Below the pieces are notes generated by a model, which was not told where the DNA came from, searched no databases, and was given only the letters and a program-made list of their open reading frames with translations. Below, one piece after another: positions 25,896 through 59,531 of a DNA stretch of 64,000 nucleotides. A program made the translations under genes and the position numbers. How positions within the stretch are numbered: position 1 is the stretch's first letter; every line of letters starts with the position of its first letter. Source of the DNA: Strigamia acuminata (Eukaryota > Arthropoda > Chilopoda > Geophilomorpha > Linotaeniidae); NCBI GenBank assembly GCA_949358305.1, contig OX442322.1, positions 6,076,001 to 6,140,000 of the forward strand, in the 5' to 3' direction.

Positions 25896-26580
25896 GGATC
25901 CGGGCGAAACCAAAGGAATACGGCTGACTTGCGGCATCGTCACAAATAACGCTACGGGGACGTATTTGGTCCGCAGCTCGAGTATCTAATGATGCGAAGA
26001 GTCCTTCGCATAAATAGGAATATTCGGCAGAATATTCCATGTTCCAAATAAATAAATGTAAAGTGATTAATGGAATATAACAAATGAATTGTTATAAAAA
26101 TATTAATTGGGCGGGGACCGTCACGACAATTGAGAGAACGTCGCGGGAGTTGTTGAGACTCCATCCGCCAGCATGCCTTACGACGACAAGATCTCGTGAT
26201 CAGGCGCCGAGTATTTAATTGTACGCTTTAATTCGCTATCGGTGGTACCAACCACCAGGTAAACATTTCTATGGACTTACCGGGATAAAAAGTATTGCCA
26301 ATACAGGATTACCAATGCCCAAGTAATTTGTTTAACACAGTGTTGTTCAACTCCTGTTCACGGGTTACTAACCCGGAGGGTACAATGGGGCGGGGACCGT
26401 CACGACAGTCGAGAGAACCATCGCGGGAGGATTTGACTCCTCCATCCGCCAGCATGCCTTACGATGACGGGATCAGCAGATCGAGCACCGGGTAAAATAT
26501 TAATCGGCCACTGCCGTTGGATTACCATTATCCAGGTAGTTATTTATCGCAACATCTGAAGATATTACTCACGGGCTACC
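25896..26580. repeat. Unidentified repeat, left of Copia-D, with two internal units
   Basis: No coding frame. GGGCGGGGACCGTCACGAC begins two related units near 26109 and 26389, ~280 bp apart; both go on through CATCCGCCAGCATGCCTTACGA. The sequence continues after Copia-D at 33440. Tandem units like these also occur in the Gypsy-3 LTR, so this may be the long LTR of another gypsy element, but its left terminus is not clear. Confidence 0.5.
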
Positions 26581-27013
26581 TGATAAGTCCGTGGAGGCCA
26601 GGAAACATCGGAAAGGAGTTGAAACCAGCTTAAAATGTGCGGGGAGCTCGCACTTCGCGCCCGCCATGTTTTAATCACATGAAAGCATAAAAGCAACTGG
26701 GTTTGAGGCTAATTGGTCTCAAACCGTACAAAATATGACAATAGGACAAATCAATAGCAACAAGCATTGATTTGTTCTTTACAATATAAGTAATTGTTAA
26801 CCTAGGCATAATTAACCGATAAACAACACGGAAAACAACATTTATCGCTCTCTCAAGCAGACGACACAAGAAACATAGAATATGTGTGTTAACACACAAG
26901 AGTAGCATTAATATGCGCTACACGGGTATCCAAAGGATGCCAACACACATATCTGCCATGCCTATCCAGAAATGCATGGGGAAACGGACAAAATAATTAA
27001 TCGCATACTAATA
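26581..27013 (-). repeat. Copia-D 3' LTR
   Basis: 433 bp; + strand TGATAAGTCC to CATACTAATA. No difference from 33002-33434 seen. Confidence 0.92.
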
Positions 27014-27024
27014 AATCCCCCTTC
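27014..27024 (-). other. Copia-D polypurine tract
   Basis: GAAGGGGGATT on the - strand, adjoining the 3' LTR and overlapping nothing coding; the polyprotein stops seven bases before it. Confidence 0.75.
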
Positions 27025-27030
27025 GATTAA

Positions 27031-30000
27031 TCAATTTGTCGCGACAAAAATGTGCTCGCACAACGCGTCCAATTTTGCGCGGGACAACCACTTTGTCATA
27101 ATGTCCGCGACGTTGAGGGTCCCTGGGATGTGCCTGATTCGAAAAACACCTTTCTCGAACCAGTCGCGCAAGAAATGCAATTTCACGTCTATGTGTTTGT
27201 TTGCGCGATTTTCTATGCGGTTTTTCGCATATTGAATCGCAGGCATCGAATCGGCATAAACACATGGTATTTCCCGGTCAAACCCGTCAATCATCACTTC
27301 CGCGTCAAATATGCGTTCTAACCAAATTATCTCCTTCACACCGTCCACAACCGCCAAGAATTCGCTTTCCATAATGGAAAGAGCGGTAATGGTCTGCTTA
27401 TGGCAGTTCCAGGAGACGGGGACACCACCCAGATAGATAATGTGCCCGCCAAAACTTCGGCGCTTGTCTTGGTCCAGCGCGTAAGACGCATCTGTGTAAA
27501 CAGTTAACTTGTCACTTTGACAGTTCCCAAGATTAATGGAGAAATTCGGCGTATTAGCCAGGTAACGCAACACTTGAAGCAGCATGTTTACGTGTCGTGT
27601 CGAGTGAGTCTCGTTGTATTGAGACAATACAATTACAGAAAACAAGATATCGGGTCTTGTGCGACTTGCGATGAAGAGCAAACTTCCGACAAGAGACCGA
27701 TATGGAAAACTCGAATTAACACGTTCTCCCGTTTGGACTTTTTGGATCATAGTGCCGGGCGTGCCAGGCACTCTAACACGGTGAGATGGGTCAATACCGT
27801 ATTGCTTGCAGAGCTTCGCAATATAGGTGCGTTGATGAATGAGGATATTCCCCCCGTCCCTACAAAACTCAATCCCTAATAAAAGGGTGACGGGGCCCAA
27901 ATTGACAATCTCAAAGGATTGTTGAATCCATTCTAAAACGCACTCTTCTGCCAACTCATCCCTCGAAAATAATACAATATCGTCGACGTAAAAGATGAGT
28001 ATGGCGTCCGAACCCAAGCTATACACACAGTTAAGACCCAAAACCGGTTCAAAACCTATTTCAATCAGCTGGTCGTGTAAGCGCTGGTACCACATACGAC
28101 CAGACTGATGAAGCCCATAGAGAGATTTTCTCAACTCCCAACATTTGTGTTGGTTTTCAGGTGTTCGATATCCCTTGGGGATGTTGATGTACTGCACCTC
28201 ATCGAGGTCCCCATATAGATATGCGGCCTTGATGTCAAGGTGTAAGTCACGCCAGCTCCTTAATACTACAAGAGTACAAAAGAACATCATGACCAACACA
28301 AAGTTGACTACGGGGGAGAAGACCTCCGTAAAGTCAATGCCGGGCTTCTGCTTGAACCCTTGTGCAACAAGACGAGCACGATATCTGCTAATCGCACCCG
28401 TATGATCCCTTTTGAGTTTATAAATCCACTTTGATCCTAGCAAGGTTTTATCCTTGACTTCACTTTTGTCAACCTCGACATACACCTCTCGTTCTTTAAA
28501 GATGTCGATTTCGTCCTCCATTGCCCTTTCCCAATCAGGTTTCCCAACACCTGTCACAGCCTCTTCGTAGGTGTCAGGCTCTACAGAGCAGCAACCAGCA
28601 AAACCGACATTGATGTCTTTGAAGTTGAACAATTCCGAGATATACTCGTATCCCTCGTCCCGACACCACCGCACAACTTCAACACGACTTCGAATTCTGT
28701 CATGCTTTGGTGAAATGTAATAAACATCAACCTGTCCAGCCGTTGCGCCTGATTTTCGCACAGACTGCCGTCTTTGCCATTTAGACATGTCCAACGGCAA
28801 TAACCCACCAGCTGGAACTGTGCGTTCCCCTGTATCCTTTCCTTTTCGTGGGGGATTACGACGCACAGGTGTAGGTGACGTTCGGGGGGATAGTTGAGGA
28901 CTCGCATCAGGATCCTCAATTTCATCCTCGTCATCGGGGTAAATACTGAAGAAATTCTCATCGTCCCCCTTTGCCCCACCAATTTCATCAACATTTGCAT
29001 CTCTAAGGACATCTTGCACTATATCCTCGATGACATCTTCCACGACACCAGCGTTCTCAACTTGTTCAGGTGCCTTTTCGGGCGCAGGTTCCTGAATTGG
29101 GGGTGGGGGAACCACTGCTTCCGGTAGGGGGCCACCATGAACGCTGTCGTCGTCTGACGAGGAGCCATCCTCGTTTGAAGAATCAGACACGCTGTCGAAA
29201 TATGAGGGGCTCGAGGGAGGAATTTTCAAATTTTCATACCAAAAATTCTGTTCCAATATTTTGACATGTTTCGAGAGGAACACTTGGTTCCGTTTCGGGT
29301 CCCAAATTCGATACCCACGGGTGGAAGCCGCATAACCAATTAATGCCCCTGCCCACGCCCTTTCTTTCAATTTCCCACCCCTTGTCTGGGAAGGAATGTG
29401 GACATATGTCAATGCCCCAATGCATTTGACATGACGCAGGGACAATTTCTTATTGTAAAACACATTGTAAGGTGTTTTCCCTCCTAATCCCGTGTGTGGG
29501 AATCGATTTTTCAAATAAACGACAGAAACTGCAAGTTCTGCCCACAAAGTTGGGGAAAAATTATTCTCAAAAAGAAAAGCCCGGATTCCATTAAGAATGG
29601 TGCGGTTCGCTCGCTCAGCAACCGAATTCATCTCGGGGCTGTATGTATTCGTCCTCATACATTTCAACCCAATGCTGTCAGTATAAGCATTCCATTGTTT
29701 CGATATGAATTCCCCACCATTGTCAGTTTTAATGGCTTTGACCTTTTTAGAAGTAAGCCGTTCAATTTCCGTCAACCACTTCTTGAAATGACCCAAAACT
29801 TCATCTTTCGTTTTCATGATGATAATCCACATCAGTCGGGAGAAATCATCAACCATAATTAGGTAATAAAATGCCCCACCAATGCTCTTAACCGGTGAGG
29901 GCCCCCAAACATCTAAGTGAACAATTTCCAAAATCCCTTTAGTGGAGATATTAATAATGGGAGGAAAGCTTGCACGTGTGCTTTTCGCCCTCGAACAAGC

Positions 30001-31842
30001 ATCGCAAGCCGACAATTCATTGTTGGAAAGTTTCAGCCCAAATACTTCATCGGATTTCTCCAACAATGCAATCCCTTTCGCATTAAGGTGCCCAAAACGT
30101 GAATGCCAAACATCCATCGTTTGAGGTTTGTCAGGCTTAATAAGAGCCTTATTCCCACCATTATCTTTCAAACTGTTTTGCACACCTTGTTTGGAAATCT
30201 TCGCAGTCTTTGATTTATTCCCATTGTTGACTACCAGGCCAGTGTGTGTGTTATTCAAAACGTTCAATTTCTGTTTCGGACTCGCATTATTCGCAACGAT
30301 CGCTGGCGCATTGTTCGCAGCAGTCACTTGCCCCATATTCGCAATTGCAGGTTTCCCTGTCTTACTCAAATTTTGGGTTAATGCAGTCTTAAAATCTAAA
30401 TGAGTTAGTAATGAATTAACAATTTCTTCACCCTTTAAAGGTGGACTAGGCTCCACTGCCGCATTCTGTTGCGCAGGTAATGCAGCAGCGTTAACAATGT
30501 GTGCAGTATTCACTTGACAATTGACTTTATACATTCTATCACTCGTACGTGTCGCAGTGATAGAAGGCGCATCAATACTGTCATGAAAAATGGACATTTT
30601 TCCATTCTTTACAAATGTGGTAGCCCCAGCTTCATCTGCACGACCTAATGAAATCAGATTCTTTCTGAAGTTTGGAGCGTAGAAGACATTTTTCAATTGT
30701 AATTCCCGTTTCTTTTGTCCATAAAAAGATATTAATGTCACAGTCCCGATGCCCTCGATTTTCGACTTTCCTTCGCCCTGCTGGACGCTGTAACCAGTTA
30801 ATGGTTTGAAGTCGGAGAACCAGGACTTGTTGAACGAGAAATGGTCTGTCGCTCCTGTATCGACGTACCATTGCGAATCAAAGTTCGCATGTGACACCAG
30901 CGATACGACAGGAGGTTGCTCTTGATTCGAAATCGCTGCGGAGAAGTAAGAGATGGGGACGTCATCAAAAATATTCATTTGGGTGACGGCGGCCTTTTGC
31001 CGGCCTTTTCCACGTGATTTTCCTCGTGGATTGCCCCTAAACTGTCCTGTTGATCCGCCTCTTCCAGTAAGTTGCTGTTTAGGTGGAGAAGGGCAGTCGC
31101 GGGAAAAATGGCCTGTCCCACCGCAGGTAAAACACACACGTGGGGAACTGGGCGCGGTTCCGCCGCGTCCACGTTGACCACTGCCTCCGCCAAAGAAGGC
31201 TCCAGTGTTTTCCAACGGTGTCGGGTTGGGCACTCCAAATTCGTCCCCCTTCTCGTAAAGGCGATTATACTCGCCTAAAAGTCTTTCTTTCACGGCAGCG
31301 GCCGTAAATTCCGGGTCGGGCCAGTGATACACTGTCTGTTTGACTGGCTCGAATTGGGGCGGCAAAAGGTCCAAGTACTGGAAAGCGTGGAACTCATCCG
31401 AGACCACAATCTTCACGTCGGCGAGTTGTGTAACTTTCCGGTCGACACGGGAAGTAAAGACGACCATCTCTTCATCCTCCCATAGACGCATATCGAGGAA
31501 TTCCCGCCGGAGTCGGGCTTTGCGTGCGCGCGTGGTCGGCTGGTAAGCCGCTTTCAGCGCTTCCCACACACCCTTCGCGGTTGGGTGGGCCACAGCCACG
31601 ACTTGCTGTGGTTCGTTGCAAGCCAGACAAATGGTGGAGCGGGCTTTTTCTTCGCCCTTTTCGTAGTCACGAATTTCCTTTGCCGGCGATCCAGCAGGCG
31701 GTTCCTTGATTTTGCCGGTCACATGTCCCCAAACACTGTATGATTGAAGCAAAAGCTGGATCTGCATGCTCCAGGTGGGATAATTGGAGCCGTCCAGTTT
31801 GCGTACATCCTTGTAATCATCATGTCGGTCCCAATTCGACAT
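27031..31842 (-). CDS. Copia-D Gag-Pol polyprotein with an MBD-like domain
   Basis: One frame of 1603 residues from the ATG at 31842 (open ten codons further up without ATG). Order: Gag (LDGSNYPTWSMQIQLLL), CCHC knuckle CFTCGGTGHFSRDC near 235, protease WYVDTGATDHF near 325, pre-integrase zinc site HSRFGHLNAKG / CDACSRAK, integrase core (HLDVWGP, KTDNGGEF, SVAERANRT), an acidic linker, an MBD-like domain at about 1015-1075, reverse transcriptase (YVDDIVLF near 1287) and RNase H (YTDASYALDQDK near 1450) to the end. The MBD shows RKSG, DVYYISP and RSR with Arg1029, Asp1039, Tyr1041 and Arg1051 at the spacing of the methyl-CpG contact residues of MeCP2 (Arg111, Asp121, Tyr123, Arg133). Gag and Pol share one frame, as is common in copia elements. 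No defect seen. Confidence 0.93.
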   Translation of the reverse strand: MSNWDRHDDYKDVRKLDGSNYPTWSMQIQLLLQSYSVWGHVTGKIKEPPAGSPAKEIRDYEKGEEKARSTICLACNEPQQVVAVAHPTAKGVWEALKAAYQPTTRARKARLRREFLDMRLWEDEEMVVFTSRVDRKVTQLADVKIVVSDEFHAFQYLDLLPPQFEPVKQTVYHWPDPEFTAAAVKERLLGEYNRLYEKGDEFGVPNPTPLENTGAFFGGGSGQRGRGGTAPSSPRVCFTCGGTGHFSRDCPSPPKQQLTGRGGSTGQFRGNPRGKSRGKGRQKAAVTQMNIFDDVPISYFSAAISNQEQPPVVSLVSHANFDSQWYVDTGATDHFSFNKSWFSDFKPLTGYSVQQGEGKSKIEGIGTVTLISFYGQKKRELQLKNVFYAPNFRKNLISLGRADEAGATTFVKNGKMSIFHDSIDAPSITATRTSDRMYKVNCQVNTAHIVNAAALPAQQNAAVEPSPPLKGEEIVNSLLTHLDFKTALTQNLSKTGKPAIANMGQVTAANNAPAIVANNASPKQKLNVLNNTHTGLVVNNGNKSKTAKISKQGVQNSLKDNGGNKALIKPDKPQTMDVWHSRFGHLNAKGIALLEKSDEVFGLKLSNNELSACDACSRAKSTRASFPPIINISTKGILEIVHLDVWGPSPVKSIGGAFYYLIMVDDFSRLMWIIIMKTKDEVLGHFKKWLTEIERLTSKKVKAIKTDNGGEFISKQWNAYTDSIGLKCMRTNTYSPEMNSVAERANRTILNGIRAFLFENNFSPTLWAELAVSVVYLKNRFPHTGLGGKTPYNVFYNKKLSLRHVKCIGALTYVHIPSQTRGGKLKERAWAGALIGYAASTRGYRIWDPKRNQVFLSKHVKILEQNFWYENLKIPPSSPSYFDSVSDSSNEDGSSSDDDSVHGGPLPEAVVPPPPIQEPAPEKAPEQVENAGVVEDVIEDIVQDVLRDANVDEIGGAKGDDENFFSIYPDDEDEIEDPDASPQLSPRTSPTPVRRNPPRKGKDTGERTVPAGGLLPLDMSKWQRRQSVRKSGATAGQVDVYYISPKHDRIRSRVEVVRWCRDEGYEYISELFNFKDINVGFAGCCSVEPDTYEEAVTGVGKPDWERAMEDEIDIFKEREVYVEVDKSEVKDKTLLGSKWIYKLKRDHTGAISRYRARLVAQGFKQKPGIDFTEVFSPVVNFVLVMMFFCTLVVLRSWRDLHLDIKAAYLYGDLDEVQYINIPKGYRTPENQHKCWELRKSLYGLHQSGRMWYQRLHDQLIEIGFEPVLGLNCVYSLGSDAILIFYVDDIVLFSRDELAEECVLEWIQQSFEIVNLGPVTLLLGIEFCRDGGNILIHQRTYIAKLCKQYGIDPSHRVRVPGTPGTMIQKVQTGERVNSSFPYRSLVGSLLFIASRTRPDILFSVIVLSQYNETHSTRHVNMLLQVLRYLANTPNFSINLGNCQSDKLTVYTDASYALDQDKRRSFGGHIIYLGGVPVSWNCHKQTITALSIMESEFLAVVDGVKEIIWLERIFDAEVMIDGFDREIPCVYADSMPAIQYAKNRIENRANKHIDVKLHFLRDWFEKGVFRIRHIPGTLNVADIMTKWLSRAKLDALCEHIFVATN

Positions 31843-32999
31843 GGTGAAGAATTTGGTGAAAAATCGATGCACAAATCACAAAATTCACAAATTTCGGCGA
31901 AAAACACTCGAAAAATTCACCAATTTGATGAAAACACACACTAATATTCACAATTCCGGTGAATATGCCGTGCAGAGAAGCGAAAACACCCCCAAAAATT
32001 GAAGGCGAAACAATCACAAACTTCCCTTTGGGCACCTCAATAAGTGAGGTGAAAAACCCGAATCTGGTCGCCCTACTAGCTTCCGACCGACCCACCTGGG
32101 GGCCGCGGGACGACTAGTTGGCCACGGACAAGCCCAGACCGGAATGAGACTGCACGTAGGCGACTGCCTAAAGGGTGCAGAATAAACAAAAGGACCCCAA
32201 AACAAAAACCTTAAGAATTAACAGAGTTTCACGAAAATAGCAACTAAAATACACTTTTCAGATGTGAAGTTGGCCAATTACGGGATCCTTGCGTCGTAAT
32301 TGGTTCCCACGTTGCAGTAAACGTCGGCTTCACGTTGTCTTCGCACGGAACTGGGCTGACGTGCAGACCGCGTACACACTTCCGTGTATCGGCCAAAATC
32401 GATGTTGCGTACGTCCACGCCTTCGTACCCGCTTTCCTGGATGCGAAGCACGGAAATAACCGCCTGCACACACGCTTATCGTGTGCAGGACTTCTCGGTG
32501 ATCGCCGGATTAAATTCGCGAGTTGAATCTCGTCGTTCTTGACGAAAAATCCAACGAAAATGGCTGCCGGTGCAACAATCGTCGATTCGCGACGATTTCT
32601 TCGCAAAATGACGGTTTCCAGACGTTCCCACGCTGGAAAGACACCAAATGCGGCGGCTAATCGACGTATTCGTTCGTCGAAACGTTGGGCGTGCGTGTGT
32701 CGTTCCGTACACACTCGTAGACACGCTAACTTCGCAAACAAAAATGGCGCCGCCCGAGAAAAACTCGGTTATATCGGCGAAAAATAAACGAAATGCAATG
32801 TTCCTTACACCGTTTTGCTCCAAATTCACTGTAGAATTGTCCGCACACGTCGTCACGGCTGTCCTTCGCGAAAAATTCCGGTTTTCGGCGATACGTCTCG
32901 GCGACGATCTGCGACGAACTTCCAACGTTCGTTTTCGCCCGAAAAACCTCACGAACTCGTCAATAACCTGTTGGCCCGATCGTGAGACCTCTGCTACCA
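31843..32999 (-). other. Copia-D leader and primer-binding site
   Basis: The primer site (- strand, 32999-32981) reads TGGTAGCAGAGG then diverges; the first twelve bases match the 3' end of metazoan initiator tRNA-Met. It follows the LTR after two bases. The remaining ~1.1 kb leader has no long convincing frame; many CG dinucleotides and AAATGGC motifs are present. Confidence 0.75.
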
Positions 33000-33001
33000 T
33001 T

Positions 33002-33434
33002 TGATAAGTCCGTGGAGGCCAGGAAACATCGGAAAGGAGTTGAAACCAGCTTAAAATGTGCGGGGAGCTCGCACTTCGCGCCCGCCATGTTTTAATCACA
33101 TGAAAGCATAAAAGCAACTGGGTTTGAGGCTAATTGGTCTCAAACCGTACAAAATATGACAATAGGACAAATCAATAGCAACAAGCATTGATTTGTTCTT
33201 TACAATATAAGTAATTGTTAACCTAGGCATAATTAACCGATAAACAACACGGAAAACAACATTTATCGCTCTCTCAAGCAGACGACACAAGAAACATAGA
33301 ATATGTGTGTTAACACACAAGAGTAGCATTAATATGCGCTACACGGGTATCCAAAGGATGCCAACACACATATCTGCCATGCCTATCCAGAAATGCATGG
33401 GGAAACGGACAAAATAATTAATCGCATACTAATA
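33002..33434 (-). repeat. Copia-D 5' LTR
   Basis: 433 bp, same as 26581-27013; followed by the CTACC duplication. Confidence 0.92.
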
Positions 33435-34229
33435 CTACCAACCCGGCGTGTTACCTGTGCATTAGGCCTTTACCGACTTTTAACGTGCGGAAGGACCAAT
33501 CGAGAAAAGACGGGAACCTGCGCGGGCTGTTTACAACAGCCATCCTGCAGCGGACTGAGGCCAGTTAGCTGAGGGACCTACTTTCATTTAGCAAGGTCGT
33601 ACTGTATACGACTGTTATATTAAGCCACCGTACGAAGTCTAACTGTCCCGTAGAACAGCAAGCTAACGTTACGGGGCCATTTCATGCGAACGCATGTCTA
33701 TTACCGGAGTTAGCCTTCCCGAAATAGCCCTACAACAGCAATAACAATATAGTAATGAATACCAACTGTGGAGAACTGAGGCGGCCTGATGTGTCGATAG
33801 AGAAAGTGAAATCAAACGATAACAACAATTCAACTACAGACAGTATACGAGTTCAGTTATCAAGCCAGGGGGGTTAGTGGGTGAGAAACTGATGCTTATA
33901 TAGTTCTGTAGAACTTACTAGATTGGCGACAGCCAATCAGCGTACGAATCGGCGGATTCGTGGGTCACTAGTCCGGACCTAAAATATGACTATTTCCAGA
34001 TGGGCCCAGTTGGGGGCAGGAAAGGTCCAATTGGTTCCCTTCGACAGGTAAGTAATGTGGATATTGATTCAGCAGAATCAACATCATTAAGTAGTTAATA
34101 CTTAATTTATATTTGAATAAAATAGTTATATTTTATTCACCGTGTCTAAATAATTATTTATCACACTTTTTAGTTTTAACCGAGTTTGAATTACGCGCGT
34201 TGGTTAAACAGCGCCATCTACTGTGAACA
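33435..34229 (-). repeat. Unidentified repeat, right of Copia-D, possible LTR end
   Basis: Continues 25896-26580. In - orientation it begins TGTTCACAGTAGATGGCGC at 34229, where the Copia-B gag frame is cut, and so could be the start of an LTR. It holds a TATATAG near 33897 and no coding frame. The other end of the element is not recognisable. Confidence 0.45.
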
Positions 34230-41142: not shown

Positions 41143-43820
41143 ATGATGCAGAAATCGGCGAATTCGAACACTTTAATTCCGGTTCTCGGTGTTGACAATT
41201 ACGAACAATGGCGGTTGTCAATGCTTTTTTTGCTGAAGTCTGAGGGGCTCTGGAGGCACGTGACGGAGGACAAGGAAGCGGAACATATTGCCACGTAAAC
41301 GCCCAAAGAATTGGATAGATTCATGGTAAAGAAGGACAAGGCATTGGGACACATCTACATTCATGTGAGCCCCGCCAAGCGTACTGTTTTGGAAACCTGT
41401 AACACGCCAAAGGAGGCGTGGGACAAGTTGGCGAAAACATACGCGCCCAGCTCTAGAGCCCGTCAAGCGGCGATGCGCTGGGAGTTCCTCAGCCTCCAAC
41501 TACAACCTGGCGAAGATATGCCGGATTTCATTGCCCGCGTGGACAATTACGTGCGGCAATTAAGTGACGTCAATGAAATCATCAGTCCAATTCACCACGC
41601 GTACCAGTACCTGAAGTGTTTGCCGCCCGAATATGCTCAGGCCACCTTTGCAATATACCATTGGCCAGATCCACAGTTTACGCCGAAGGATGTTGCCGAA
41701 CAATTGATTTCCGAGCACATGCGGCTCAAATCCATCGGATTACTCGGAACGAGCCAATCATCAGCTCACGCGTCTATGAAGGGACAATTCCGACCCCGAA
41801 ATAAATCCGGACCTCGTGATATCTCGACGGTGAAGTGCTTCAATTGCGATCAATTCGGACATTACGCAAACAAATGTCCACGTCCGCCCCGTCAACAACA
41901 GCGGCAACCCGCGGCTTCACTACAACGCAATTCTCGCAGTAAGAGCCGCCGTCGCAACAAGAACGCCGCGGCGAAGGCAAACAACACGCGTCCCCGTGAG
42001 AGTTCCCATCCGCATCGAGAGGGGACATTCTTTGTCAACGCGCCGCAGGCTGTCCAACGTCCAGTAGCCCACTTCATGCAATCCAATGAATGGATACTGG
42101 ATTGCGGCGCCACGGACCACGTGTCTCACGTGCGTGCAGGATTCACTGAATTCACCGATGTGATTCCCTTTGACATCGAGTTGGGACAGGGCAAGTCCCA
42201 AGTAACGGGCAAAGGGACAGTTCGTCTTCTACTAGCAATTGACAAGACCCGATGCACCGTCAATTTGACAAATGTTCTCTACGCGCCGAACTTCGAGGCA
42301 AACTTGATTTCGGTTTCAAAGATTGATAAAGCTCGACATCATATCCACATTTTCAACAGTGAGATTCATGTTTACCAATCGGACATTCACAGTCCTCTCA
42401 TCCGTGCAAAGGAGAGAGGTGGTCTTTACTATGTGGACGGTTTATGTTCGAATCCGACATTTGCGACGACTGTCTCTCCTACGACACAACCGACGATTCC
42501 ACCGTCGCCACCGCAAATGTACGTGACAACCGAAGAAGATTTCCCGAATATTCCAAAGCATAGACAGGGAAAAGGGTCGAATCAGCGAGAAATTACGGAC
42601 TTCCGGATTGAGATGCCAGCAGTAAAGCAAATTTCTGTACGACAAGCTCCTCAAACCAATCCGATCCAGATACCTCCTCCCATTCCCACACAAATCCACA
42701 ATGACCTGACCATTCCTCCTTTCTATGCGAGTGCCCTACAGTCAATTCCGACGGCAATTCCTACCGCGATTCACAACGCAAATTCCTTTCCTTCCCTCGG
42801 CAATCCGTCTCAACCGAAAAAGGTCATTGCCAATCCAGCTTCCGTCAAGGACGCCACCGGCTTATGGCACAGCCGACTTGGCCACCTTCACACCAATGGA
42901 ATGAAGTTGTTGGCCGCAAACGACCAAGTTTACGGAATGCAACCAGGGGAAGTCAGCAGAGAATTGGCTTGCAACGATTGTCGGATCGCCAAATTGACTA
43001 GAGCTTCTCACAAGCCCGATCCGAATCCCTCGACAACAAAGCCTTTGGACCTTCTCCACATGGATATTTGGGGGCCCGCCCCTATCCCATCGTTTGGAGG
43101 AGCGCGTTTTGTCCTTACCGTCATCGACGACGCTACTCGCTATTGCTGGATCATACCGCTAGCGCAGAAATCACAAGTTTTCGCAACTTTTAAGGATTTT
43201 GTTGCACGGGTGGAGCGGATACAGGACGCGAAAGTCAAGGCTATCCGTACGGATCGGGGTGGCGAATTTTTATCAAACGAATTTCTCCGCTACCTTCAAG
43301 ACAAAGGTATTCAGGGTCAGCGAACAAATCCATCATCGCCACAGATAAATGGCTTGGCCGAGCGCATAAACCGGACAATGGCCGACAACTTTCGTGCAGT
43401 CTTATCCCAAACCAAGTTGCCGGAAGCGCTCTGGGTCGAGCTCGCGGTTACGTTCGCGTACATCAAGAACCGGTGCCCTCATTCCCGTCTCAACAATCAA
43501 GTTCCGTACATCCTTTGGCGACAGAGAGCCCTTTCGTTACAACATCTACGAAAAGTCGGTTCCAAGTGCTGGGTGCACTACACCGCACCAGGCCGCAAGA
43601 AGCTGGATCCGCGGGCCTGGGAGGGATATTTAGTCGGCTACGCCACCGGGACCCGTGGATACAGGATTTGGAACCCCCCCCGATACAAAGTTTATGAGTC
43701 GATCCACGTCAAAGTTGACGAACGCCAATCCTATCGGAAGTCCATTAAAATTTCATCACAGCAACCTCAAGAATCGTTTCCGAGCCCGAATCAGCAATCA
43801 GTCACATTCGATGATAACCT
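41143..43820 (+). pseudogene. Copia-E Gag-protease-integrase part
   Basis: Starts at ATG 41143 or 41146. Gag begins (LGVDNYEQWRLSMLFLLKS), meets TAA at 41296-41298 and continues in frame. Then CCHC knuckle CFNCDQFGHYANKC near 41840, protease WILDCGATDH near 42091 (Cys where Thr or Ser is usual in D-T/S-G-A), pre-integrase zinc site HSRLGHLHTNG / CNDCRIAK, integrase core (HMDIWGP, RTDRGGEF, GLAERINRT) and GYATGTRGYRIWNP. Gypsy-3 interrupts it 43820/57152. Leaving aside the stop, domains are intact. Confidence 0.88.
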
Positions 43821-45483
43821 TGTGACGGTGACGACCACAACTCCTATCGCATGATAGTACCGGGTATAAGTCGCGGGAATAAGTGATTAATACGAGATAA
43901 AATAAAGACAACAAGTTTCTCAAAACACTACATTTATTGTTGTCAAACAATAGAATCAAATCTAAAAGTTATACAAATTCTAATGCCGACATTTGGCAAG
44001 TTAATTTACCAAGTTAAACTATACATGAAATTGGCTGTAAAACAGCCCTAAAATAATATGATTACGGTTATTGGTGATCCGGGGTTCGGGAACGGCAAAA
44101 CGCCCGCTCGACCGAGTATAGATGTCATCAGGTAGCCGGGCTGGCTGTGTCCTCGCGGCTTCCGTCGGCGCTTCGTAATCGTGGAACTGGTTCCTTCGCG
44201 TTCCATCGCGTTCCTGGTCGTATCTGGTGTAATGGTCCGTGTAATGCTGTTTGGTTCGATCCGAGAGGTGCGGTTGACTCATGTGCACCGCCACAACTAG
44301 GGTTGGAAATTGGTAATGAATAAATGAAGTCATTTATTCGCCAAGGTTCCGCTTGCGAATTATATTTAATTCGCGATGTTGTGAGTTTAATAAATTAACT
44401 CAATAAATTGTATTCAATTTATTGTTACGAATTTGATTCGTCATACAGTGAAACAAGTCTCGTGACTTATTTCGGTTGTTAACTTGTTGCCAAGTTTAAA
44501 CAATTAAGGTTTATTATCAACTACAAAATATAATAAAGGTTAAACATCGCAACACACAATTGCCGTCAAAGTTCGCCTTGCTGAGCAGAACAGTATCGCG
44601 CGTGCCCTAAACAACAGTGCGGTGAGAGACGGCACTGGTATTCAGGGGGATATAGCCCGCAGTTCTGCACAACAGAATTAATCACCCGAGATACTACTCA
44701 TAAGTAGACTGCTTTGGCACCATCACCGAAGAGATATAACTTTCCCAAACACATAGTGCTACTGGCGGTAACTGCATGTTTTGCATACAGACTGCTTTGG
44801 CACCATCAGGTGATGGAGTCAATCTCTTTCAGTAACAGTGCTACTGACGGTTACTAAATACTTTGGTATCACACGTGATTCTATTGTCCGACCACGAGGA
44901 TACTTATGCGGGAGGCTTTCTCCTCGGCAAGACCGTTTGACGGAAACATTAACAGTCCGAACTTTGCCTTCAGTTGACGGGGGTTGCATGGCTCAGCAGA
45001 GCCATGCTATGCATGGACTGGTAGGCCCATGCCCTGAGTAAGAAACAGTTATTTGACATGCGGAACATACCAAATAACCAGAAATCAAGAACTAACTTAA
45101 CTTCCTGTTGTCAGGGAGTTTTATACTTGGTGGGAATAGGTTCCACCAATCTCGTATCGCAGGAAGTGGATACGGAGATGCAAATTGGGATTATGCTAAT
45201 CTTTTAGCATAAACCGGAACTGGATACCGGGGACAGGAAATGGATACACAGAACGGAAATATATTCTGAAAATGGGTTTCATGTCGCGTACCCGTGATAA
45301 AGCAAGAATACCTGCTTTATCTTATTGAATATTGATAATATAACTTTATATTATCGATTTAGATTACTTTTATGCGTAACAAACATAATAATATGTCTGT
45401 GAACTATTTCTGTGGAAAATAGTAAGTTCGAGGTTGAATTTGCCGCTAGTACTTGTGGCGCCATCTATTGCTAATTTGTCACA
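43821..45483 (-). repeat. Gypsy-3 3' LTR
   Basis: + strand TGTGACGGTGACG to TTTGTCACA. It has a GCGCCATCT motif at 45458-45466. Two ~82-bp tandem units (each starting near GACTGCTTTGGCACCATCA) lie at about 44709-44870. A small 104-residue frame recurs in the other LTR and is not taken as a gene. Confidence 0.92.
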
Positions 45484-55287: not shown

Positions 55288-57147
55288 TGTGACGGTGACG
55301 ACCACAACTCCAGCCATTTTTGCACTCTCAAAACCAGATACAGAATATAATCTCAAAGCATAGGTTACAAGTATTATGTATAAATACAGGATAAATCATA
55401 AATGTTTGCATCATAAATAATTCTATTACAATACAAAAAGCATGGATCAATCACACACATATCTGAATGGTTGTGATTGATCTTTGTGACGGTGACGACC
55501 ACAACTCCTATCGCATGATAGTACCGGGTATAAGTCGCGGGAATAAGTGATTAATACGAGATAAAATAAAGACAACAAGTTTCTCAAAACACTACATTTA
55601 TTGTTGTCAAACAATAGAATCAAATCTAAAAGTTATACAAATTCTAATGCCGACATTTGGCAAGTTAATTTACCAAGTTAAACTATACATGAAATTGGCT
55701 GTAAAACAGCCCTAAAATAATATGATTACGGTTATTGGTGATCCGGGGTTCGGGAACGGCAAAACGCCCGCTCGACCGAGTATAGATGTCATCAGGTAGC
55801 CGGGCTGGCTGTGTCCTCGCGGCTTCCGTCGGCGCTTCGTAATCGTGGAACTGGTTCCTTCGCGTTCCATCGCGTTCCTGGTCGTATCTGGTGTAATGGT
55901 CCGTGTAATGCTGTTTGGTTCGATCCGAGAGGTGCGGTTGACTCATGTGCACCGCCACAACTAGGGTTGGAAATTGGTAATGAATAAATGAAGTCATTTA
56001 TTCGCCAAGGTTCCGCTTGCGAATTATATTTAATTCGCGATGTTGTGAGTTTAATAAATTAACTCAATAAATTGTATTCAATTTATTGTTACGAATTTGA
56101 TTCGTCATACAGTGAAACAAGTCTCGTGACTTATTTCGGTTGTTAACTTGTTGCCAAGTTTAAACAATTAAGGTTTATTATCAACTACAAAATATAATAA
56201 AGGTTAAACATCGCAACACACAATTGCCGTCAAAGTTCGCCTTGCTGAGCAGAACAGTATCGCGCGTGCCCTAAACAACAGTGCGGTGAGAGACGGCACT
56301 GGTATTCAGGGGGATATAGCCCGCAGTTCTGCACAACAGAATTAATCACCCGAGATACTACTCATAAGTAGACTGCTTTGGCACCATCACCGAAGAGATA
56401 TAACTTTCCCAAACACATAGTGCTACTGGCGGTAACTGCATGTTTTGCATACAGACTGCTTTGGCACCATCAGGTGATGGAGTCAATCTCTTTCAGTAAC
56501 AGTGCTACTGACGGTTACTAAATACTTTGGTATCACACGTGATTCTATTGTCCGACCACGAGGATACTTATGCGGGAGGCTTTCTCCTCGGCAAGACCGT
56601 TTGACGGAAACATTAACAGTCCGAACTTCGCCTTCAGTTGACGGGGGTTGCATGGCTCAGCAGAGCCATGCTATGCATGGACCGGTAGGCCCATGCCCTG
56701 AGTAAGAAACAGTTATTTGACATGCGGAACATACCAAATAACCAGAAATCAAGAACTAACTTAACTTCCTGTTGTCAGGGAGTTTTATACTTGGTGGGAA
56801 TAGGTTCCACCAATCTCGTATCGCAGGAAGTGGATACGGAGATGCAAATTGGGATTATGCTAATCTTTTAGCATAAACCGGAACTGGATACCGGGGACAG
56901 GAAATGGATACACAGAACGGAAATATATTCTGAAAATGGGTTTCATGTCGCGTACCCGTGATAAAGCAAGAATACCTGCTTTATCTTATTGAATATTGAT
57001 AATATAACTTTATATTATCGATTTAGATTACTTTTATGCGTAACAAACATAATAATATGTCTGTGAACTATTTCTGTGGAAAATAGTAAGTTCGAGGTTG
57101 AATTTGCCGCTAGTACTAGTGGCGCCATCTATTGCTAATTTGTCACA
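55288..57147 (-). repeat. Gypsy-3 5' LTR with a 197-bp inner extension
   Basis: 55485-57147 matches the 3' LTR. The primer site, however, sits outside a second copy of the 24-bp LTR terminus at 55288-55311, with 173 bp of unique sequence (55312-55484) between the two terminus copies. GCGCCATCT at 57122-57130. Confidence 0.85.
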
Positions 57148-57151
57148 ACCT

Positions 57152-59531
57152 TCATTACCATCAGTGGCCCAGGGGATCCGATTCAGAGGCTTCCGAACAC
57201 TCTGCAAACGACTCCGAACATGTGTCAACGGCATCCGCTTCGATGCACACGCCACCTGCATATCCGCACATCCACATTCCACCTCCGACAACTCCGGAAC
57301 GGGTATTGCTGGATCTATGTGCGACATTACCTCCGGGTTCTGCGTCTCTTCGCCAATCCCATCACATTTCGTATGAAGAAGAACGTGACAGAGACCACGA
57401 CATCCGAGAGATGGATGAGCTATCGGTTTATCCCGAGACGTCCGAACTTGTTGGCGCGTCAGCAGAAACATCGTCGCATCAACTACCTCCGTCGACACCT
57501 CGTCAATCTGCCCCGCCATCGCCTCGCCCATCAGCTCCACCCTCGCCTCAACGTTCGGCAGCACCTCCACTTCCCCGTGAAACACCGGTACCGACGCCGA
57601 GATTCATCACAACGCGTCGTCAACAACGCGCTGGTGATCCTGCTACGCATACGTTGCAGATATTCGACCCCGATCCCATGTCACCAGCTCCGGTATTGGG
57701 AACCGAAGTCGCTGCGGCAACCGCTCGCCACACGACTCACATGTGGCGATTCGTTGGTGGAGATGGAGAGTGTTGTGAATGGGTACGCGAAGAGCATCTC
57801 CGGAAGGATCAAAAACCTGGATCAATCGCAATCGACGTCTATTATTTCCCAACTCCGAAGATCCGTTTAAGATCTTATAAGGACGTCGAGGACTATTGTT
57901 TGTTAAATAACATCGATTACGACCCCGGACTTTTCTTCTTTGGAAATCTCGAGCATAAGTTACCAATTCTTCCGGGCGTTCGTCACGCGGCTCATCTATG
58001 CCGAACCGAGCCGGCTTCATTCGCCGAAATTCCCAAATTCAACGACGCTCCGAAATGGCGGGAAGCCATCCAAGAAGAATTGGACACTTTCAAAGAGCGA
58101 GAAATTTACACCGAAGTTCCCCGACCACCGGACACCACCATTCTCGGTTGTAAATGGATTTTCAAGCTAAAAACCGATGCAGCCGGAACCGTCACTCGTC
58201 ATCGTGCTCGCCTGGTTGCCCAAGGATTTTACCAAACCCTCGGCGTGGACTTCGATGAGGTGTTTAGCCCGGTCGTGAACTTCGTGTTGATTCGTCTATT
58301 TTTCTGTCTCCTGGTTGTGTTGCGAGGCTGGAAAGACGCACACCTCGACGTAAAATGTGCGTACCTGTATGGCGAGTTAAAACACAAAGTATACATGAGA
58401 ATCCCTGCAGGTGCCACATGCACCGATCCAAACAACGTGTGGCTTCTTCTCAAATCGCTTTACGGCCTCCACCAATCCGGGAGACAATGGTTCGAGAAAC
58501 TCAACGAGACACTTCGGGCCTTCGGATTTCGAAGAATGCCAGCATGTAATTGTGTTTACGTGTTCGGGAATACAGCTGTTATGCTGGTCTACGTGGACGA
58601 CATCGTCGTGTTTTACACGTCCGACAGCGTTTTCAATCAGCTAATCCGTCTCATCTCTTCGAAATTCGACATAGTCAACCTCGGTCCGATCACGAAGCTA
58701 TTAGGCGTCGAATTTATCCGCGACGCCGGACGCACGTTTATAACGCAACGTGCTTATATCGCCAAACTTGTTAAGAAATTCGGGACGTCGACCAATAATC
58801 TCGTCAAGACACCGGTGACCCCGGGAACGACACTCGTCAGAGGATCGACCGAAAACTTGGAAGATTTTCCATACCGATCACTAATCGGTTCACTTCTGTT
58901 TTTGGCATCGAGAACTCGTCCCGACATACTCTATTCCGTCATCGCTTTGGCACAGTACAACACGTGCTATAATCGAACCCACATCCGCGCCTTGCTGCAG
59001 GTTCTGCAGTACGTAGCAAACACTGCAGAACTTTGCATCGAATTATCCGGTTGCTCTTCTAGTCAACTGTCTGCATTTACCGACGCGTCGTGGGCAAGCG
59101 ATCCGGAGACATCATTGAGCTTCGGAGGATACATCGTATACATTGGAAATGTCCCTATTGGCTGGTCCTGTCGTAAACAGTCGACCGTAGCGTGCTCAAC
59201 CATGGAAGCCGAATTCATCGCCCTGGTTGAGTGCGTGAAGGAGCTCTTCTGGCTCGACAGTGTATACACCAAATTCCCGATTCTCAACCGTTTATCTTGA
59301 CCTATCGTGTATTCCGACGCCCTGGCCTCAATTCAATTTACGTCTAATGACATCGAGAACGCGAAGACGAAGCATATTCGCGTGAAGTTTTACTGGCTCA
59401 GGGAGTGGTTTACTGCGGGAGTCTTCGATCTTCGAAAGGTAGCCGGCGAAGTTAATACCGCCGACATATTCACAAAGTGGCTATCTTCGGAACGTTTACG
59501 ATCATTGATTTCGAAGATCTTCCGAGTATAA
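57152..59531 (+). pseudogene. Copia-E MBD-like, RT and RNase H part
   Basis: Resumes the frame after Gypsy-3. A Ser/Pro/His-rich linker is followed by an MBD-like domain (57801-57960): RKD at 57801, DVYYF at 57834, LRS with Arg at 57870, and LFFF. RT follows (GCKWIFKLKTDAAGTVTRHRARLVAQG, in pieces; LDVKCAYLYGEL; VYVDDIVVF near 58591), then RNase H (FTDASWASDPE, STMEAEFIALVECVKEL). TGA at 59298 replaces a codon that is CGA in the related fragment at 62016. The tail to TAA 59529-59531 remains readable (PIVYSDALASIQF, HIRVKFYWLREW). Confidence 0.88.

Follow-up and report, generated by a model that had tools for sequence, protein, structure and literature searches.

What does a Ty1/copia retrotransposon do with a methyl-CpG-binding domain (MBD)? 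The question is raised by an element in the window, the 64,000-nucleotide stretch of the Strigamia acuminata genome analysed here (contig OX442322.1, positions 6,076,001 to 6,140,000). Between the integrase SH3-like domain and the reverse transcriptase (RT) its polyprotein has a long acidic linker, which ends in a segment that a sequence-only reading had taken for an MBD able to read DNA methylation. On profile and structure-prediction evidence the segment is a true MBD. PF01429 matches at E 4.7e-9 (36.2 bits against a curated cut-off of 21), human MBD1 is the top PDB match, and an AlphaFold2 model gives a predicted fold whose Foldseek and VIA matches are MBD4, MeCP2 and MBD2; the Pfam domain order confirms its place between integrase and RT. 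The element comprises:

26581..33434, minus strand: 6,854-bp Ty1/copia long terminal repeat (LTR) retrotransposon whose gag-pol frame is open, from the LTR repeat and the open polyprotein frame
33002..33434, minus strand: 5' LTR, 433 bp, 100% identical to 26581-27013
26581..27013, minus strand: 3' LTR, 433 bp, 100% identical to 33002-33434
26576..26580, no strand: target-site duplication CTACC, 5 bp, one side
33435..33439, no strand: target-site duplication CTACC, other side
32988..32999, minus strand: putative primer-binding site TGGTAGCAGAGG, directly inside the 5' LTR, from sequence alone
27031..31872, minus strand: single gag-pol frame, 1,613 codons from GTG
31255..31758, minus strand: Gag (Retrotran_gag_2), residues 39-206, Pfam E 2.7e-23
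29635..29925, minus strand: integrase core (rve), residues 650-746, Pfam E 9.2e-11
29236..29457, minus strand: integrase SH3-like domain, residues 806-879, Pfam E 6.3e-22
28651..28779, minus strand: MBD, Pfam residues 1032-1074 (predicted fold about 28603-28791), from Pfam, PDB match and predicted fold
27766..28458, minus strand: RT (RVT_2), residues 1139-1369, Pfam E 2.3e-51

The Gag–integrase–RT order with RVT_2, the LTRs and the 5-bp duplication place the element in Ty1/copia. No chromodomain occurs among the 13 Pfam matches (up to E 1) of the polyprotein and its RT is of the RVT_2 type, which separates it from the chromoviruses. The primer-binding site is presumably of the initiator-methionine tRNA type; tRNA and Rfam scans across the window returned no matches.

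Contact residues of the domain

MBDs recognise CpG through two arginines and owe their methyl selectivity to one tyrosine, and MBD3, with phenylalanine at the tyrosine position, shows little methyl selectivity (excerpts of PMC5240623 and PMC9520026). The window element has the complete Arg/Asp/Tyr/Arg set, as had been read from its sequence. All 17 of 17 aligned element MBDs, the window element included, retain the aspartate and both arginines that contact CpG, in rows gathered with a search pattern that itself required Asp and Arg-Ser (the second arginine); the same residues are likewise invariant in alignments A1 and A2, built without that pattern. The residue count draws on 18 hand-chosen sources, 17 of which the pattern found, missing the second copia of the window; the 17 rows include near-copies of one family, with L002, L006 and further near-copies left out.

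The methyl-selecting tyrosine is kept in five of the 17 rows (the window element, L001, L003, L004 and L104), the other 12 having Val (five), Ile (four), Trp (two) or Leu (one). Because this residue is lost, most sampled families are probably not methyl-specific. Tyrosine is present in the deeper lineages sampled, and among nine derived-group rows of the RT tree the window family alone has it.

Abundance, descent and constraint of MBD copias

A search of the genome that contains the window (157 contigs, 237.5 Mb) with the Pfam MBD family gave 1,092 candidates and one with the window MBD 1,270; the best 150 of each were scored, all 150 lying over the cut-off in the first case and all 150 matching in the second. 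Position lists throughout hold the best-scoring 150 of 1,092, 1,270, 2,633 and 3,447 candidates and are no census. Among the best 150 of the 1,270, 27 copies, counting the window's, are 100% identical to the window MBD at each of its 88 residues; frames of 1,614 or 1,618 codons contain 18 of the 27. Three further MBD copias were fetched whole, two with identical LTRs (466 and 477 bp) and 5-bp duplications (ACATA and TTCCG). Such identical LTRs with duplications, together with the many identical MBD copies, indicate that several MBD-copia families were recently active. The third, L051 (G000:C3:4626426-4635393), has an altered 5' LTR region, with a palindrome-rich array (CGTATACG) and a 56-bp unit that is repeated several times, whereas its 3' LTR has this unit once.

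Many of the best 150 of 2,633 RVT_2 matches lie in shorter frames (for example 1,307, 1,368 and 1,388 codons). The eight copias inspected from this set all have SH3 and RVT_2 flanking the integrase–RT gap by Pfam, and an MBD is absent from that stretch in 8/8, both by reading and in Pfam up to E 10; because an MBD as diverged as that of the second window copia could escape Pfam, we count them as copias without a recognisable MBD, not as proved MBD-free. An RT tree of 22 rows places the 14 MBD rows on one side of a branch and the eight non-MBD rows on the other (support 96/96), with four MBD rows omitted (L007, L015, L017 and L106; two short, two near-copies). The lineage of MBD copias envisaged from the single element is, among the rows sampled, one RT clade within one arthropod genome, and the simplest reading of the tree is that the MBD was taken up once and then inherited by descent.

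The second window copia, interrupted by a Gypsy element, groups inside the MBD clade and carries its own MBD in the same place. Pfam gives this domain only E 0.047; its predicted fold and conserved columns agree with an MBD, and all four contact residues (Arg, Asp, Tyr, Arg) are present, along with one additional residue.

57774..57944, plus strand: divergent MBD of the second window copia, directly before RT
41311-43854 and 57132-59300: gag-integrase and RT frame, respectively, of the second window copia, with the Gypsy in between

This copia (window 39125-60911) has near-identical terminal repeats, and those of the interrupting Gypsy, at 43820-44119 and 55484-55783, are 100% identical to each other.

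Purifying selection acts on the MBD. Nonsynonymous and synonymous divergence (dN, dS) are 0.164 and 1.43 for the window element against L100, where RT is more constrained (0.051 and 0.974); they are 0.316 and 1.37 for the window element against L103, 0.112 and 1.04 for L013 against L102, and 0.144 and 2.00 for L103 against L105, dS being saturated in the other three of seven pairs compared. L103 and L105 have far-apart MBDs and nearly identical RTs (dN 0.012, dS 0.40), a contrast in their sequences that suggests recombination between families near the MBD.

In four of the eight non-MBD copias (L108, L109, L113 and L115) the segment between integrase and RT holds GRP or RGRR cores, which we take to be AT-hook-like; Pfam lists no AT-hook family up to E 10 in any of the eight, so the motif is one recognised by reading. 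Relatives were also sought in viral contigs, where 18 stretches matched a pattern and none was confirmed.

Location of the copies and their insertion points

Listed MBD copies crowd certain stretches of the assembly, among them C1:60-67 Mb, C3:0-6, C6:14-16, C8:0-2, C9:0-2, C12 at either end, and C13. ((CCTAA/TTAGG)n, a repeat indicative of an arthropod, was seen at 2 of 12 contig ends inspected.) For distances, copies less than 20 kb apart were thinned to one and kinase matches at 50 kb, small contigs were left out, kinase exons stood in for genes, and the RVT_2 set stood in for other copias. The Pfam MBD list supplied 149 of its 150 rows (C3:20309085, at 35 bits in a 110-codon frame, was dropped as perhaps a host exon) and the window-MBD list 124 of 150, the other 26 being already in the Pfam list; the other 150-row lists and all 133 kinase rows entered in full. 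The MBD and RVT_2 sets have no copy in common, as no listed MBD match lies within 1.5 kb of any of the 150 listed RVT_2 matches (the closest is 3.7 kb away), eight of the RVT_2 matches having been inspected for an MBD and the rest judged against the best-150 MBD lists.

The median distance to the nearest scored gypsy match is 347 kb for MBD copies (n=221), 1,619 kb for other copias (n=141) and 1,125 kb for random positions (MBD against other copias, p 3.6e-13; other copias against random, p 0.046). Kinase exons lie at medians of 2,133 kb from MBD copies, 1,056 kb from other copias, 1,031 kb from random positions and 2,403 kb from gypsy matches, MBD copies differing from other copias at p 3.6e-8 (3.2e-6 without C13, 0.0004 without the kinase clusters). 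These clusters of kinase-like frames, of about 340-490 codons, lie at G000 C1:29-47 Mb and C8:3.9-6.7 Mb, many of them a whole domain in one open frame. After thinning, small contigs hold 24/245 MBD copies against 3/144 other copias. The share of copies whose nearest neighbour is of the same class is 0.721, against 0.549 under label shuffling within contigs (0/2,000 shuffles as high). The listed MBD copies are thus found in regions rich in gypsy and poor in kinase genes, unlike the listed other copias.

Splitting the families by list position, with a 59-row Val set that includes two Ile rows (L016 and L017), the Tyr family lies at a median of 338 kb from gypsy matches and the mostly Tyr-less sets at 213 and 352 kb (p 0.15); the Tyr family is itself closer to gypsy than other copias are (p 0.0048). 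As Tyr and Val/Ile sets are alike, the compartment bias is apparently independent of the methyl-selecting residue.

Insertion points were studied in 40 5' flanks (L054-L093), 35 of which were used (three lacked a junction, one abutted its own kind and one was a duplicate), from families F2 (Ile) and F3 (Val), as read from one MBD of each. Mean flank GC is 0.458 at the 35 insertion points, against 0.356 in a background of eight 10-kb pieces taken at round coordinates. With both families pooled, observed/expected (o/e) CpG is higher in the near 240 bp of flank than in the far 240 bp by 0.18 (95% interval 0.03-0.33); the gradient in F2 is 0.33 (14/17 copies, interval 0.13-0.55). The enrichment of CpG in the near flank of MBD-copia insertions is suggestive only. 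Both families also show a weak target-site preference, counted from the LTR, of G at -8 (22/35), T at -7 (20/35) and A at -5 (17/35).

The reading that we tentatively favour, at a little short of an even chance, is that the MBD serves as a CpG- or chromatin-binding tether on the integrase, largely independent of methylation. An animal-type MBD would have been acquired by an arthropod Ty1/copia clade, most simply once, and retained on the integrase side. The processed integrase most likely bears it as a DNA-binding tail, whose two arginine fingers and supporting aspartate would grip CpG-containing DNA and bias insertion of the cDNA towards GC- and CpG-richer, gene-poor, repeat-rich chromatin. 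That the domain stays on the integrase after processing, binds CpG and causes the bias is what we infer, the causal step because MBD and clade coincide.

Several observations weigh against this tether. Because the MBD is confined to a single clade, the bias could equally stem from some other feature of these elements. MBD copies and gypsy matches do not differ in their distance from kinases (p 0.84), so that gypsies build up in this compartment too and an MBD is no requirement for doing so; by itself the Trp family, at 541 kb, lies nearer to gypsy than other copias by a marginal difference only (p 0.059). The bias, seen in the best-scoring 150 of each list, may reflect targeting or selection after insertion. 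At the insertion points, the whole window has a GC of 0.435, so the flank excess may merely mirror the compartment. The CpG gradient was not found in F3 (0.04, 10/18 copies, interval -0.13 to 0.21), no CpG preference was seen at the cut site itself in the 35 flanks, the comparison that first showed the gradient used distance ranges picked after its profile had been viewed, and flank GC and CpG were compared without control flanks of other copias.

Some of these points suit a different account, in which the MBD acts elsewhere in the element's cycle, for instance by compacting or shielding the cDNA inside the particle, by helping to import the integrase or by blunting MBD-based silencing by the host, and the bias comes from selection or from other traits of the clade. 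The bias is common to gypsy elements, and the window's Gypsy frames show no MBD in Pfam (gypsies genome-wide were not searched for one); the domain is conserved, its role putative. Against this account, chromosome arms retain other copias whose long frames are still open, so that arms tolerate copia insertions. We consider it the least probable of the explanations weighed here.

DNA methylation and the meaning of the domain

Does the tether read methylation? The earlier proposal was that the MBD recognises methylated CpG and thereby directs new insertions, either into methylated chromatin or towards methylated copies of the element itself. The window element does keep all four contact residues, and the host check that the proposal called for turned out in its favour. 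DNMT1-like exons occur at four host loci, with agreeing PDB matches for 4/4 (L094-L097 and L099 cover DNMT-like loci), alongside a DNMT2 exon whose PDB match agrees and an MBD2/3-type C-terminal domain. Four separate DNMT1-like loci appear to be an unusual number. With these genes the host may methylate its DNA, which leaves room for methyl reading by the window lineage.

The sequences examined show no footprint of methylation. CpG is not depleted, at an o/e of 1.13 in the window and 1.11 in the window element (0.90 to 1.47 in eight 10-kb pieces of the genome). In comparisons between copies, CpG sites show no excess of transitions over the remaining C/G positions in either of two families, at 0.0182 against 0.0155 (15 comparisons) and 0.0543 against 0.0547 (six comparisons); both families are Tyr-less, the window's Tyr family was not among them, and the test is blind to low or recent methylation. 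Copies of these two families carry no germline-methylation footprint. Invertebrate methylation is, according to excerpts of PMC5240623, mostly in gene bodies, the opposite of where the MBD copies lie. With tyrosine replaced in 12/17 rows and the mostly Tyr-less sets equally biased, we regard methyl reading as unlikely. Of the suggested likeness to chromodomain targeting, the compartment bias is supported, by correlation only. As an insertion cue, methylation finds no support in CpG o/e, the transition spectrum or tyrosine conservation. Within the tether that we favour, the window family, which has the tyrosine, may still prefer methylated CpG.

Yeast offers a precedent for a tether on the integrase, as the MBD occupies the position in which Ty1 and Ty5 have their targeting determinants. 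Ty5 and Ty1 belong to the copia superfamily and have a targeting determinant in the integrase tail, for silent chromatin or Pol III genes, and the Ty5 C-terminus binds Sir4 to target silent chromatin (PMC5911963, in part); their tails bind host proteins, whereas the tail in the window clade is predicted to be a folded MBD. The MBD could also be a protein-binding platform that recruits host chromatin proteins and tethers the pre-integration complex, DNA contact being secondary. The arginine fingers and the aspartate do not vary in the aligned rows, which is more easily explained by contact with DNA than by a free surface for binding proteins, and we judge the platform improbable, to about the same degree as methyl reading.

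Element MBDs resemble animal MBD1, MBD2, MBD3 and MeCP2 in sequence, predicted fold, arginine fingers and aspartate; the animal proteins are products of host genes, and 12/17 element MBDs replace the selecting tyrosine, as MBD3 does with phenylalanine (excerpts of PMC9520026 and PMC5240623). Retrotransposons with cytosine methyltransferases have also captured DNA-methylation machinery, but a writer and not a reader; the same source describes abundant Symbiodinium Copia without a DNMT domain, and the term MBD occurs 0 times in its main text (PMC5890265). In the listed titles and abstract openings of the literature on MBDs and targeting in retroelements, and in passages of PMC5890265, PMC10881000, PMC5911963, PMC5240623 and PMC9520026, we found no description of an MBD-bearing copia, in keeping with the suggestion that the class is undescribed. 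Chromoviruses are likewise LTR retrotransposons with a chromatin-reading module next to the integrase, but combine Ty3/gypsy order with a chromodomain where the window element combines copia order with an MBD.

The classic example of a chromatin reader in the service of a transposon is the chromodomain integrase. It is possible, if doubtful as a whole, that a clade-wide, integrase-linked MBD is a targeting module for CpG-richer, gene-poor chromatin, that most families have lost methyl selectivity and kept the CpG arginines, that sister families may read different CpG states, and that the integrase tail is a swappable DNA-reading slot, with AT-hook-like motifs in some non-MBD copias. If this is true, MBD copias, a numerous and recently active clade, would provide a second, independent case of a transposon chromatin reader, acting through a DNA rather than a histone reader. 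Since sister families differ at the methyl-selectivity residue, they offer a natural series in which CpG recognition by an MBD can be compared on methylated and unmethylated DNA.
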